From: an uncultured Thermogutta sp. | GTDB lineage: Bacteria; Planctomycetota; Planctomycetia; Pirellulales; Thermoguttaceae | DNA length: 64,000 bases | Reading direction: 5' to 3' | Assembly: GCA_937128505.1 (NCBI GenBank) | Contig: CAKZMM010000082.1 | Coordinates: forward strand, 1 to 64,000 | Program-made: the position numbers and the translations under genes | Part shown: positions 46,888 to 53,246 of the stretch, piece by piece | Numbering within the stretch: position 1 is the first letter of the stretch | Layout of the letters: each line of letters starts with the position of its first letter | Notes under the pieces: generated by a model | What the model was told of the DNA's origin: nothing | The model's input: only the letters and a program-made list of their open reading frames with translations | Databases searched by the model: none

Positions 46888-47973
46888 ATGCGATATGAAC
46901 GGGTCTGCGTCGAGGCGTTCGGCTATTTGCTGCCGGAAGAGCGATGGACCTCGGAAGAAATCGAAGGGCGGCTTGCTCCGGTATACGAGCGGCTTCGGTT
47001 GTCCGAGGGAAGATTGGAGTTAATGACCGGGATCAAAGAGCGGCGGGTATGGCCGCAAGGTGCCCTACCAAGCGAATTGAGTGCTCGGACGGCTGAGTGT
47101 CTCCTCCGGCGGCACAAAATCTCCCCCGAACAAATCGGTGTGCTGGTGCACGCCTCTGTCAGCCGGGATTTTTTGGAACCGGCAACGGCTTCTTTGGTGC
47201 ACGGTAAACTCGGCCTAGGTGCCCGGTGTTTGACCTTCGATCTATCGAATGCCTGCCTCGGCTTAATGGACGCGATCGTTCTAGTGGCCAATATGATCGA
47301 AATGGGGCAATGTGGTGCCGGAATTGTTGTGGGCACCGAGAGTAGTCGATGTCTGTTAGAAAACACCATCAAGTATTTAAATGAGCACCCGAAGATCTCG
47401 CGCGACGTGCTGAAGCTTGCGACTGCGTCGCTCACGATTGGCTCGGCAAGTGCGGCCATCCTTCTGACGGATATAAAGCTCAGCCGGACCCGGAACCGAC
47501 TCTTGGGCGGAGTCGCCTGGGCCTATACCGCGGGAGCCTCCTTGTGCCACAGTACGGCGGACGCGGCCGGGGGGGATCTCATGACTCCGCTCATGTGGAC
47601 GGACTCCGATTTGCTGCTGACGGAAGGGGTAAAAGCGGCGCGAGAGGCATTCGGCGAGTTTTTGACGGAAATCGGCTGGACCACCGCGCGGATCGACAAA
47701 ACCGTATGCCATCAGGTGACGCGGATTCATCGGAAAGTGCTCTTGGAAACGCTGGGGTTGGATTCGCAGAAAGACCTGACCACCTACGAGTGGCTTGGAA
47801 ACACAGGGTCGGTAGCCTTACCGGTGACGGCCGCCCTTGCGGCAGAACGGGGGGATTTTCAACCCGGCGATCGAATCGCCCTCATGGGGATCGGATCCGG
47901 CATCAACGTGATCATGTTGGCAGTCGAGTGGGAGGCTCCAGAGGCTCCAAACGTCTCATCCGGGAGTTCCTGA
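46888..47973 (+). CDS. oleA: OleA-like thiolase-fold acyl-CoA condensing enzyme
   Basis: A 361-residue enzyme of the KAS III/thiolase superfamily. Segments SVSRDFLEPATAS, LTFDLSNACLGLMDAI, ESSRCLLENT and LMGIGSGINVIMLAVEW match the olefin-synthesis enzyme OleA more closely than FabH. Active-site residues are all present: C123, H275 (CHQVTRIH), N305 (WLGNTGSV) and E97, the Glu in SRDFLEP that OleA contributes. OleA joins two acyl-CoAs head to head to give a beta-keto acid. OleB, OleC and OleD are not in the window, so a full olefin pathway is not shown. The 3' end overlaps marC by 18 bp, convergent. Confidence 0.75.
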   Translation: MRYERVCVEAFGYLLPEERWTSEEIEGRLAPVYERLRLSEGRLELMTGIKERRVWPQGALPSELSARTAECLLRRHKISPEQIGVLVHASVSRDFLEPATASLVHGKLGLGARCLTFDLSNACLGLMDAIVLVANMIEMGQCGAGIVVGTESSRCLLENTIKYLNEHPKISRDVLKLATASLTIGSASAAILLTDIKLSRTRNRLLGGVAWAYTAGASLCHSTADAAGGDLMTPLMWTDSDLLLTEGVKAAREAFGEFLTEIGWTTARIDKTVCHQVTRIHRKVLLETLGLDSQKDLTTYEWLGNTGSVALPVTAALAAERGDFQPGDRIALMGIGSGINVIMLAVEWEAPEAPNVSSGSS

Positions 47974-49188: not shown

Positions 49189-50343
49189 ATGTTCATAGAA
49201 GTTTTATCCAGGAATTCTGAGCAGATTGTAGACGCCGTTTTGAGCGGGCAGCGTCTTTCGCCCGACCTTACCCAGGTGCTCTTTGATCAATGTGTCGACT
49301 TACCCTTATTGGGGCAGCTTGCGGATGAGGTGAGAAAACGTTTGTGTGGCGATGTGGTTTATTACAATATCAATTCCCACATCAACCCGACCAATGTTTG
49401 CGGCTATCGGTGCTCGCTGTGTGCTTTTCGCCGAAGCTTCGACGATCCGACCGCGGAGACCATGGATTTTGATGCCATGTTGAGCCTCGCGCAACAAGCA
49501 GCGGACTCCGGCTGCACAGAGCTGCACATCGTGGGTGGCTTGCATCCGCAGAAAAGTTTCGACTGGTATGTCGAGATCTTGCGAAAGATTCATGACGCAT
49601 TCCCGAGACTGCACCTAAAGGCCTTTACGGCTGTGGAGATTGCCCACTTTTCTCGGATAAGCGGGCTGAGTTTGGATCGCGTCCTGGGACGTTTGATCGA
49701 AGCCGGATTGGGCAGTTTGCCGGGAGGCGGAGCGGAAATCTTTGCCCCGGAGGTCCGTCGCCAGATTGCCCCCGGCAAAGCCGACGGCGACCTTTGGTTG
49801 GATGTCCACCGAACCGCCCATCGTCTCGGACTGCGTTCGAATGCTACCATGCTTTATGGCCATGTGGAGCAGCTGTGGCACCGGGTTGATCATCTGCTTC
49901 GTCTTCGCGAATTGCAGGACGAAACGGGCGGCTTTCAGGCGTTCGTCCCGCTACCATTCCATCCCGACGGTACGAAGCTTGCCCACCTTCGTCGGGCCAC
50001 CATTTTCGATGATTTGAGAACAATCGCTGCAAGCCGCTTGATCTTGGACAACTTCCCGCACATTAAGGCCTACTGGGTGGCTTTAGGAGTTCCGACTGCG
50101 CAAGTTGCCCTAACCTTTGGTGCGGACGATTTGGACGGCACTGTGCGTCAAGAGCGGATATATCACGACGCTGGCTCCCAGGCCCCGGAGGTGCTTTCGG
50201 TAAGCGAGCTCTGCCGTTTGATCCGAGAAGTGGGGCGCGAGCCAGTGGAGCGCGATAGCCTGTACCGCCGAGTCGTTCGCCAAGGTAATCATTGGTGGAT
50301 TGAAGGCGAAAGCCCGCGTGATAAGCCCATTCATACCAATTGA
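49189..50343 (+). CDS. mqnE: Aminofutalosine synthase MqnE
   Basis: Radical-SAM enzyme of the futalosine route to menaquinone; joins a radical from SAM to 3-((1-carboxyvinyl)oxy)benzoate. Seen: the 4Fe-4S motif C71-x3-C75-x2-C78 (NVCGYRCSLCAF), IVGGLHPQKSFDWYVEIL and HLKAFTAVEI, and LGSLPGGGAEIFAPEVR, which separate MqnE from MqnC-like relatives. 384 residues, normal. ATG 49189. Its presence suggests menaquinone is made through futalosine; MqnA, MqnB, MqnC and MqnD are not in the window. Confidence 0.93.
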   Translation: MFIEVLSRNSEQIVDAVLSGQRLSPDLTQVLFDQCVDLPLLGQLADEVRKRLCGDVVYYNINSHINPTNVCGYRCSLCAFRRSFDDPTAETMDFDAMLSLAQQAADSGCTELHIVGGLHPQKSFDWYVEILRKIHDAFPRLHLKAFTAVEIAHFSRISGLSLDRVLGRLIEAGLGSLPGGGAEIFAPEVRRQIAPGKADGDLWLDVHRTAHRLGLRSNATMLYGHVEQLWHRVDHLLRLRELQDETGGFQAFVPLPFHPDGTKLAHLRRATIFDDLRTIAASRLILDNFPHIKAYWVALGVPTAQVALTFGADDLDGTVRQERIYHDAGSQAPEVLSVSELCRLIREVGREPVERDSLYRRVVRQGNHWWIEGESPRDKPIHTN

Positions 50344-50489: not shown

Positions 50490-51620
50490 ATGGAATGGAT
50501 GCTTTATGGGGCGACTGGGTACACCGGACAAAACCTTGCCACGGAAGCAGTGCGTCAAGGCTTACGGCCGGTGTTGGCGGGGCGCAACCCCGGGGCACTC
50601 CGCCACCTTGCCGAACGGCTTGGCTGCCGATGGAGGGCATTTGAAGTTTCCGCGGTTAAGGCTCAGCATTCCATCCTCGCGGGAATGAGGTTAGTACTCA
50701 ACGCGGCCGGACCCTTTTCCCAAACCGCGGATCCCCTGGTTGACGCGTGCCTTAGCATGCGGTGCCACTACCTCGATGTGACGGGCGAATGGAATGTGAT
50801 CGAGGCAATAGCCCATCGGCACGCCGAAGCGATTTCGGTCGGCGCGATTCTGATGCCGGCAGTGGGGTTTGACGTCGTGCCAAGCGATTGTTTGGCGCTG
50901 TGGCTCGCGGAACGCCTCCCCAGTGCCAAGTTACTCCAAATCGCGTTTACAGCAGACCGAGCCATGAGCCGGGGCACTGCAAAAACGATGATTGAAGGGC
51001 TTCTCCGCGGAGGTCGGGTAAGAAAAAATGGCCGCATCACCGCGGTACCTATTGGACACAAAACGCGTGTGATCCCCTTCTCCAACCGTCCGAGAAAGGC
51101 GGTCTGCCTTCCCTGGGGCGACGTAGCTTCCGCCTGGTATACGACCGGCATTGGCAACATTGAAGTTTACGCTGCACTTTCCGGATGGCAGATCGCCGCA
51201 CTCCGTGTACTTCGGGGGTTTATCGGCAAAGGCTTGACGAAGGACGAGAATTCAGGGGAACTGACTGCCAAAGCCTGTTGGCTACGCGATTGCTTATGGC
51301 GAATCCTCGATCGGCATTTCCCAAATCCCAGGGATACAGAGGACGAAGCTAGTCAGGCATATTTCTGGGGACAGGTCTGCGACCGAACCTCGGGAAAAAC
51401 CTGCGAGGCCTCCTTAACCACACCAGGCGGCTACAGATTGACCGTTCAGACGGCGCTTGCCGCAGTGCGGCAGATTCTTCAAGATCCCCCAAGCCCGGGT
51501 TTTTGGACACCAGCCCGAGCTTTCGGACACGATTTTATACGCCGTTTTGACCGGGTAATCTGGCACGGCCTCAGCCATCACACCTCGGCTTACGTGGAAC
51601 GAACTGCCGGGCCAATTTAG
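50490..51620 (+). CDS. Saccharopine dehydrogenase-like NAD(P)H reductase
   Basis: A 376-residue Rossmann-fold protein. The N-terminus LYGATGYTGQNLATEAV is a nucleotide-binding loop, followed by NAAGPF and CHYLDVTGEW, as in the saccharopine dehydrogenase/trans-acting enoyl reductase family. Several members reduce lipid intermediates, but no substrate can be named here. ATG 50490 follows AGGAG (about 10 bases). It lies 146 bp after mqnE and ends convergent with the inactive ketosynthase. Confidence 0.8.
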   Translation: MEWMLYGATGYTGQNLATEAVRQGLRPVLAGRNPGALRHLAERLGCRWRAFEVSAVKAQHSILAGMRLVLNAAGPFSQTADPLVDACLSMRCHYLDVTGEWNVIEAIAHRHAEAISVGAILMPAVGFDVVPSDCLALWLAERLPSAKLLQIAFTADRAMSRGTAKTMIEGLLRGGRVRKNGRITAVPIGHKTRVIPFSNRPRKAVCLPWGDVASAWYTTGIGNIEVYAALSGWQIAALRVLRGFIGKGLTKDENSGELTAKACWLRDCLWRILDRHFPNPRDTEDEASQAYFWGQVCDRTSGKTCEASLTTPGGYRLTVQTALAAVRQILQDPPSPGFWTPARAFGHDFIRRFDRVIWHGLSHHTSAYVERTAGPI

Positions 51621-51959: not shown

Positions 51960-53246
51960 TCACGTCGGCCATCTGCTCAGAACCACCGCGGCTGCCTGCC
52001 CACCATGGGTCCACTGAATGATAAGCACCTTCGATTTCTCTATCGCCGACGGGACCTTGGCAATATTCACCAAGCAGTCACCCTCCGGTTCGCAGCAATT
52101 TAAAGTGGCAGGCACGGTGGATTCTCGTAGTCCCAGCACGCTAATGGCAGCTTCCACAACTCCCGCCGCCGCCCCTAAATTTCCCAAATATCCCTTGAGG
52201 CCAACCACGGGTACTCCCGGGGCTACCCGATGGATCCAAGAAGCTTCGAGCATATCCTCGCGGATGCTCCCGAGGCCATGGGCATGAACGAAAGCCAACT
52301 CGTCCGGCGATACACCGGCCCGAGACAGGGCCAAGTGTGCCGCCCGGATTACAGCCGATCCAGTTGGAAGACTTCTATTACCGGGCTCATGCGCGCAACC
52401 GGTGCCTAAAATAAGCCCGAGTATCGGCCCCTGTCTCTCCAGTGCACCGGAAAGGCGTTCGAGAACCACGGCCCCGGCGCCCTCGCCGATCACCTGACCG
52501 GTGCGACGCCGGTCAAATGGCCGACATGCCTGGGCAGGATCTCCGTTCTCGGTGGATAAGCGGTCAGTCCCACAAAGCCCAACCCAATCATACGGGCGAA
52601 TTCGCGCACTGGTTCCGCCGGCAATGACAAAATCAGCACGATTCCGGCATAGAATCGACGCGGCTTCGGCCAAAGCAAGAAGGCCCGAGACCTCTCCGTG
52701 GTGGATCGTATTGTTCGGCCCTTGAGCGTCGCAAGCGATAGAAATGTGGCAAGCCACCATGTTGGGCAAGACTTTCAAGAAAGAAAGGGGAAAAGACTCC
52801 GACATGCCCTTGGAGGCCCAAAGCTCCATGCTAAATCTGCCGTCAGCAATGGAGACCTCATAAGAGGCAATACCTTCATCGAGGCCTCCGCTAATTCGAT
52901 CCGCCGCGAAAATCACGCCAATCCGTCCTGCATCCAGACCCAAAGCAGGCAACCCCGCCATTTCACAGGCCATGATGCTCGCGGCCACACCGAGTTGAGC
53001 ATCGCGGCTCATCAGTTTCAGGGATTTTTTCGGCCTGACATAATCGGTTGCGTTGAATCCCCGAACTTCCCCTGCAATTTGAACCGGCAATCCGCCTGCA
53101 TCAAATGCTTGAATCCGCTGAACACCACTTTTTCCGTTCAGGATTGAAGCCCACACCTCTTCGGGACCGATCCCGATGGGACTCACAATGCCCAACCCGG
53201 TGATTGCTATGGCATTTAGGGGCCAGAGACCCGAGTCACTTTCCAT
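51960..53246 (-). CDS. Ketosynthase-fold protein lacking catalytic Cys (KAS II-like)
   Basis: A 428-residue protein with the full KAS I/II fold: AITGLGIVSPIG, GEGAGAVVLERL, and FVHAHGLGS. The usual catalytic Cys of the TACxxS motif is replaced: after ACDAQGPN the seventh residue is E185 (IHHGEVSG) where FabF has Cys163. The second His (GHLLGAAG in FabF) is N356 (GNLGAAAG). Only H323 and K351 remain. The C-terminal gate GFGGTN is THGGQA. It is thus unlikely to condense acyl groups. Decarboxylase or chain-length-factor roles are known for Cys-less relatives, but these have Gln, not Glu, so the job here is open. No partner ketosynthase lies next to it. Confidence 0.85.
   Translation of the reverse strand: MESDSGLWPLNAIAITGLGIVSPIGIGPEEVWASILNGKSGVQRIQAFDAGGLPVQIAGEVRGFNATDYVRPKKSLKLMSRDAQLGVAASIMACEMAGLPALGLDAGRIGVIFAADRISGGLDEGIASYEVSIADGRFSMELWASKGMSESFPLSFLKVLPNMVACHISIACDAQGPNNTIHHGEVSGLLALAEAASILCRNRADFVIAGGTSARIRPYDWVGLCGTDRLSTENGDPAQACRPFDRRRTGQVIGEGAGAVVLERLSGALERQGPILGLILGTGCAHEPGNRSLPTGSAVIRAAHLALSRAGVSPDELAFVHAHGLGSIREDMLEASWIHRVAPGVPVVGLKGYLGNLGAAAGVVEAAISVLGLRESTVPATLNCCEPEGDCLVNIAKVPSAIEKSKVLIIQWTHGGQAAAVVLSRWPT

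Follow-up and report, generated by a model that had tools for sequence, protein, structure and literature searches.

Sequence and predicted structure of acid-KS

The window analysed here is a stretch of 64,000 nucleotides (positions 1 to 64,000 of contig CAKZMM010000082.1) from the genome of an uncultured Thermogutta sp. It encodes a protein with the fold of a ketosynthase (KS) but without the catalytic Cys, which we call acid-KS and which resembles the KS-beta subunits or chain-length factors (CLFs) of other bacteria. The gene and its features are listed in Table 1, together with its main neighbours. The reading frame starts with ATG and contains neither an internal stop nor a frameshift. Pfam identified both halves of a ketosynthase, ketoacyl-synt (PF00109, 2.4e-36) and Ketoacyl-synt_C (PF02801, 1.1e-13). 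The top NCBIfam match was fabF (TIGR03150), at 257.6 bits, which does not reach the curated cut-off of 493.75.

Table 1. Positions of acid-KS, its active-site and family-specific features, and neighbouring genes in the window
Feature	Position	Strand	Description
acid-KS gene	51960..53246	-	428-aa ketosynthase-fold protein without catalytic Cys, KS-beta/chain-length-factor-like
E185 codon	52692..52694	-	Replaces the nucleophile Cys (FabF Cys163), by alignment; E 90 and D 59 of 155 in the clade
H323 codon	52278..52280	-	First catalytic His, kept; His in 115/143 non-Cys sequences
K351 codon	52194..52196	-	Active-site Lys, kept; Lys in 136/143 non-Cys sequences
N356 codon	52179..52181	-	Replaces the second catalytic His; Asn 81, His 43 of 143
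THGGQA, residues 413-418	51993..52010	-	Replaces the FabF gate GFGGTN, by alignment; gating Phe gone
Residues 143-162	52761..52820	-	Strongest family-specific conservation (acid versus Cys clade comparison); aligns to FabF about 122-141
OleA-like KS III	46888-47973	+	PRK09258, 406 bits against a cut-off of 285
MqnE (aminofutalosine synthase)	49189-50343	+	Above curated cut-off; futalosine-type menaquinone synthesis
SDH-like gene	50490-51620		Real gene, with profile matches

The structure was predicted using AlphaFold2 from an alignment of 41 sequences, giving a model with a pLDDT of 93.5 and a pTM of 0.93. The model has the thiolase-type KS fold and matches FabF structures with a Z score of about 62 and an rmsd of 1.7 over 402 residues, at 32% identity. 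The match to the actinorhodin CLF (PDB 1tqy_B), with a Z score of 60.1, is in practice tied with FabF. Among the alignments listed in searches of PDB sequences the chains were all FabF-like; one entry, 9s5h, contains two different KS chains. Acid-KS is thus an intact FabF-fold protein that lacks the catalytic Cys, in agreement with a first-pass annotation of the sequence, which had described the fold as intact.

The catalytic positions were assigned by alignment to E. coli FabF. The Cys-His-His triad of functional FabF and FabB is absent, its positions being occupied by E185, H323, and N356, and the alignment bears out in full what had been proposed from the sequence, including the retention of K351 and the change of the gate to THGGQA. 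Helix 184-200, which bears the Cys in ketosynthases, has E185 at its start in the AlphaFold2 model.

The acid is conserved within a single clade

An initial search for relatives, in which any KS was counted, gave matches in 60 of 60 genomes. In the closer relatives the Cys is replaced by E or D and the second His, in most, by N. We compared residues across 143 non-Cys and 62 Cys sequences together with E. coli FabF; at the Cys site 80 of the 143 have E and 58 have D. With further genomes added, the 155 non-Cys sequences from Planctomycetota form one clade, in which the site is acidic in 149 members (E 90, D 59, with S 3, G 1, Q 1, and N 1 making up the rest). Support for the clade is 0.68 for the non-Cys sequences alone and 1.0 when five basal Cys sequences are included. 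On this tree the simplest reading would be that the Cys was lost once and that an acid has since been strongly retained. The basal Cys sequences come from family f34, and may reflect the ancestral state. In this family (L188-L191 and L167-L170) both subunits of the KS pair have the Cys, and a Cys copy occupies the position of acid-KS.

The Glu had initially been considered unexpected, but nearly all members of this clade have an acid here, and a paralogue with Glu, His, Lys, and Asn was already tabulated for Rhodopirellula baltica in 2009. A sequencing or assembly error had also been raised, in which case orthologues would restore the Cys or the frame would prove to be disrupted. Relatives in many independent genomes carry the same substitutions, with E or D retained at the site, and the frame is unbroken; we therefore rule out such an error as the source of E185, its probability being negligible.

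The KS fold, the Lys, and E365 are retained in the non-Cys clade, as is the first His in most members; the Phe gate is lost in most. About two thirds of the clade retain the first His, the Lys, and His or Asn at the second site jointly; in a sizeable minority the first-His site reads N, Q, D, F, or T, and in some the second site is neither His nor Asn. The family-specific positions in the block 143-162 are W143, L154, W155, L157, K158, L160, P161, and N162. By comparison with FabF, this block would lie at the dimer interface, beside the acyl pocket of the partner.

The acid-KSs evolve faster than their Cys partners: within the genus, identity is 67-68% for the acid-KS of contig C118 and 51-52% for that of C143 (both in this genome, as described below), compared to 88% for the KS of C63 and 83-85% for FabF. 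The loss of the gate, the family-specific block, and the faster evolution together fit a subunit that would hold and shape the pocket of its partner and not condense alone.

Two further observations concern the limits of the clade. One cluster (L227 2109-10433, minus strand) contains four ketosynthases, two of which lack the Cys and have Phe or Ala in its place; these lie outside the acid-KS clade and look like separate losses of the Cys. Contigs titled Candidatus Kuenenia stuttgartiensis (L124 and L152) encode acid-KSs of the Planctomycetia type, and the record titles may be wrong.

Pairing with a Cys-ketosynthase

In all 18 genomes that could be tested and where the gene has not been relocated, acid-KS directly adjoins a KS with the catalytic Cys (Cys-KS) on the same strand. 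Seventeen of these genomes lie outside the order of the Thermogutta genome (G114, G090, G200, G185, G136, G170, G368, G288, G413, G299, G242, G388, G318, G344, G255, G409, and G443), and the remaining one, G432, belongs to the same class. The spacing between the two genes ranges from an overlap to about 0.8 kb. In three other genomes (G116, G134, and G152) acid-KS is at the end of a contig and adjoins DH2. Where the contig is long enough, the order of the operon is DH1 (FabZ-like), KR (FabG-like), acyl carrier protein (ACP), DH2 (FabZ-like), acid-KS, and Cys-KS. The ACP is about 130 aa long, and KR is sometimes missing. G432 (L218) has DH1, ACP, DH2, acid-KS, and Cys-KS consecutively, and its acid-KS groups in the tree among those of Planctomycetia. 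The paired member in G288 (L226 7650-8978, minus strand) has Gln at the Cys site, in the sequence TAGQASG, like the actinobacterial CLFs that we tested.

The first-pass annotation had offered a non-condensing partner as one possible role, and had looked to conservation of the pattern beside other ketosynthase genes. The conserved pairing outside this order supports that suggestion well, since the acidic relatives adjoin a Cys-KS wherever the arrangement could be tested.

We also analysed the co-occurrence of acid-KS and DH2 across the phylum. In a sample of 149 genomes, DH2 (E<=1e-28) and a non-Cys KS of the clade type occur in the same 17 genomes. In a sample of 392 genomes, with a KS of this type defined at E<=1e-99 and DH2 at E<=1e-25 and the five f34 Cys genomes excluded, 62 genomes contain the KS type (one of them, G411, being of a different type) and 58 of these also contain DH2. 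DH2 occurs in 15 of the remaining 330, two of which (G170 and G368) do bear acid-KS. The match is therefore perfect in the smaller sample, and strong but imperfect in the larger.

Apparent relocation and duplication in this genome

The genome studied here contains an operon (G000:C63, L208) in which DH1, KR, ACP, DH2, and Cys-KS are orthologous to those of the paired operons, and from which acid-KS is absent. The KS there shares 51-62% identity with most of the paired Cys-KSs and 73-88% with the KSs of most other genomes of the same order. There are three copies of acid-KS, on C82 (the gene in the window), C118, and C143. No Cys-KS adjoins acid-KS at the C82 locus, nor in most of the Planctomycetia copies. 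From these arrangements it appears that, in this order, acid-KS left the operon and was duplicated.

On C143 (L039; 534-1856 and 4755-6002), acid-KS is found near fabD, fabG, acpP, and a normal fabF, with a long ORF that has no Pfam match between acid-KS and fabF. Several genomes of the order share this arrangement, often with nusA and infB coming next. Ten loci (L052 7663-8787, L055, L076, L103, L122, and others) have a gene for a fatty acid desaturase next to an acid-KS of the C118 type, which favors a lipid role for the family.

The copy in the window belongs to a subclade of 15 members (support 0.994), drawn from several genera, which have E or D with few exceptions. Its closest relative is only 51% identical, and it deviates from the family consensus at P106, W155, and A349. 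These deviations, the lack of conserved neighbours, and its status as the genome's second or third acid-KS are what would be expected if the family as a whole partners a KS but this paralogue has decayed or specialised and has stopped pairing. The full-length frame, the high-confidence fold, and the retention of the acid, with few exceptions, in its well-supported subclade argue against this explanation, which we consider distinctly unlikely.

A proposed KS-beta-like role for acid-KS

We consider it likely that acid-KS is a non-condensing subunit of the KS-beta or chain-length-factor type, which arose independently of the actinobacterial factors and was later relocated and duplicated. The starting points for this proposal are all observed: the substitutions, their conservation within one clade, the pairing in other lineages, and the relocation. 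Also in its favor are the co-occurrence with DH2, the Gln of the paired member in G288, and the match to the actinorhodin CLF, tied with that to FabF. Relatives of acid-KS would form a heterodimer with a Cys-ketosynthase, in which they would act as a scaffold and contribute part of the acyl pocket, while the partner's Cys would carry out condensation. The heterodimer would work within a small type II set consisting of DH1, a FabG-like reductase, the ACP of about 130 aa, DH2, acid-KS, and Cys-KS. The C82 copy may still pair in trans with a Cys-KS, most likely that of C63 and possibly the FabF at C143.

Several points weigh against this proposal. The acid is retained far more strictly than a merely vacated site requires. 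His323 and Lys351 are mostly retained in the family, whereas the tested CLFs read Q-D-K-R, and the family lies outside the actinobacterial CLF clade. The counts of co-occurrence with DH2 are inflated by shared ancestry, and in three families (f106, f23, and f113) we found a DH2-like gene and detected no acid-KS. Finally, no neighbouring genes are conserved around this copy and its closest relatives, the only recurrent ones being widespread DUF1559-like and oxidoreductase-like genes, and the identity of its own partner is for this reason a guess. As a separate observation on the three families, their loci (L220-L224 and L235) contain DH2 and ACP and mostly DH1, with no KS pair adjoining.

The main alternative is that acid-KS is a malonyl-ACP decarboxylase that makes acetyl-ACP starters, comparable to the KSQ decarboxylases. 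The acid would replace the acylated Cys, and H323, N356, and K351 would carry out the decarboxylation. A His-Asn pair acts in decarboxylation in FabH-type enzymes. Strict retention of the acid suggests a positive role for it, and this family mostly keeps the His residues that actinobacterial CLFs lose at both sites; the joint presence of the first His, the Lys, and the second-site His or Asn in so much of the clade also speaks for it. We nevertheless judge it improbable. The sizeable minority in which the first His is replaced, or the second site is neither His nor Asn, is hard to accommodate, as is the loss of the gate loop in most members, and a carboxylate placed beside the malonyl carboxylate would be chemically awkward. 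KSQ decarboxylases are marked by a Gln in place of the Cys and by two intact His residues, where acid-KS has E185 and N356.

The same strict conservation, with the retained network of Lys, His, and E365, might instead point to a homodimeric enzyme of new chemistry whose Glu serves as a catalytic acid or base. Given that the family is always found beside a Cys-KS outside this order, and that the gate is lost, we regard this as very improbable.

The KS-beta-like reading can be taken further. The housekeeping FabF might have the C143-type paralogue as its partner, in which case a KS/KS-beta heterodimer would drive primary fatty acid synthesis in planctomycetes, and the family might constitute an acidic class of chain-length factors of its own, with the acid functional, for example in decarboxylation or as a gating element. 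We put this forward as speculation, and doubt that it holds in full.

Comparison with known systems

Two Cys-less FabF paralogues of R. baltica, NP_866153 (Glu) and NP_865682 (Asp), were listed by Rattray et al. (2009; PMC2649909), with Glu163, His298, Lys328, Asn333, and a Leu after His-Gly in NP_866153. That paper lists the residues only, and gives no clade, operon, partner, or mechanism for these paralogues. Acid-KS agrees with NP_866153 in the Glu-His-Lys-Asn set and the Leu after His-Gly, as compared with the published table only, and on these residues NP_866153 is almost certainly a member of the acid-KS family. A literature search, thin on subscription journals, found no follow-up of the Cys-less R. 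baltica paralogues.

Chain-length factors are the non-catalytic halves of two-part chain-building enzymes in antibiotic-making bacteria. Three annotated, plasmid-encoded Streptomyces CLFs were used as a control. At the Cys-His-Lys-His positions they read Q-D-K-R, the Gln at the Cys site being as the first-pass annotation had stated. In a tree that includes them, the acid sequences are monophyletic (39/39, support 0.997) and separate from the three CLFs. Acid-KS is like the actinobacterial CLF or KS-beta (1tqy_B) in having a full KS fold in which the Cys is lost, the Lys is kept, and the GFGG gate is altered, and in that its gene adjoins those of a Cys-KS and an ACP in the lineages that retain the operon. 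It differs in having Glu or Asp rather than Gln, in mostly keeping the first His, in belonging to a separate clade, and in being unlinked and multi-copy in Planctomycetia.

Highly reducing type II polyketide synthase and aryl polyene systems (ApeO-ApeC and Iga11-Iga12; PMC8358021) combine a KS and a Cys-less partner with KR, ACP, and one or more dehydratases. The planctomycete set has the same composition, except that its Cys-less partner is full length. From FabF, with which it shares the fold, acid-KS differs in lacking the Cys, the second His, and the Phe gate, and in scoring below the fabF cut-off. The KSQ decarboxylases likewise have the Cys replaced, with the His and Lys retained as in many acid-KS members; in acid-KS the replacement is Glu or Asp rather than Gln, the second His is mostly Asn, and the protein stands alone.

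What was recorded in 2009 as an incidental residue change can now be tested as an example of a KS-beta subunit that evolved on its own. The family extends over many families of a single phylum, lies apart from its likely partner, and has duplicate copies next to the core genes of fatty acid synthesis. If the pairing is true, heterodimers would carry out condensation in planctomycete lipid synthesis, the annotation of acid-KSs as FabF by pipelines would be wrong, and swapping or removing one subunit could be used to probe the control of chain length in the unusual membranes of planctomycetes.

Neighbouring genes in the window

The first-pass annotation had connected acid-KS with the OleA-like and SDH-like genes nearby. 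We searched the window neighbours of acid-KS against all of the relative loci examined. Near the relatives there was no match for the SDH-like, G3P dehydrogenase-like, MarC, or TPR genes or for the small ORFs; the OleA-like gene gave two remote matches (24-26% identity) and MqnE gave one. A functional link with OleA, SDH, or MqnE is therefore not supported, as these neighbours do not accompany the family elsewhere, and from their distribution the OleA-like and SDH-like genes appear to be accidental neighbours of acid-KS.
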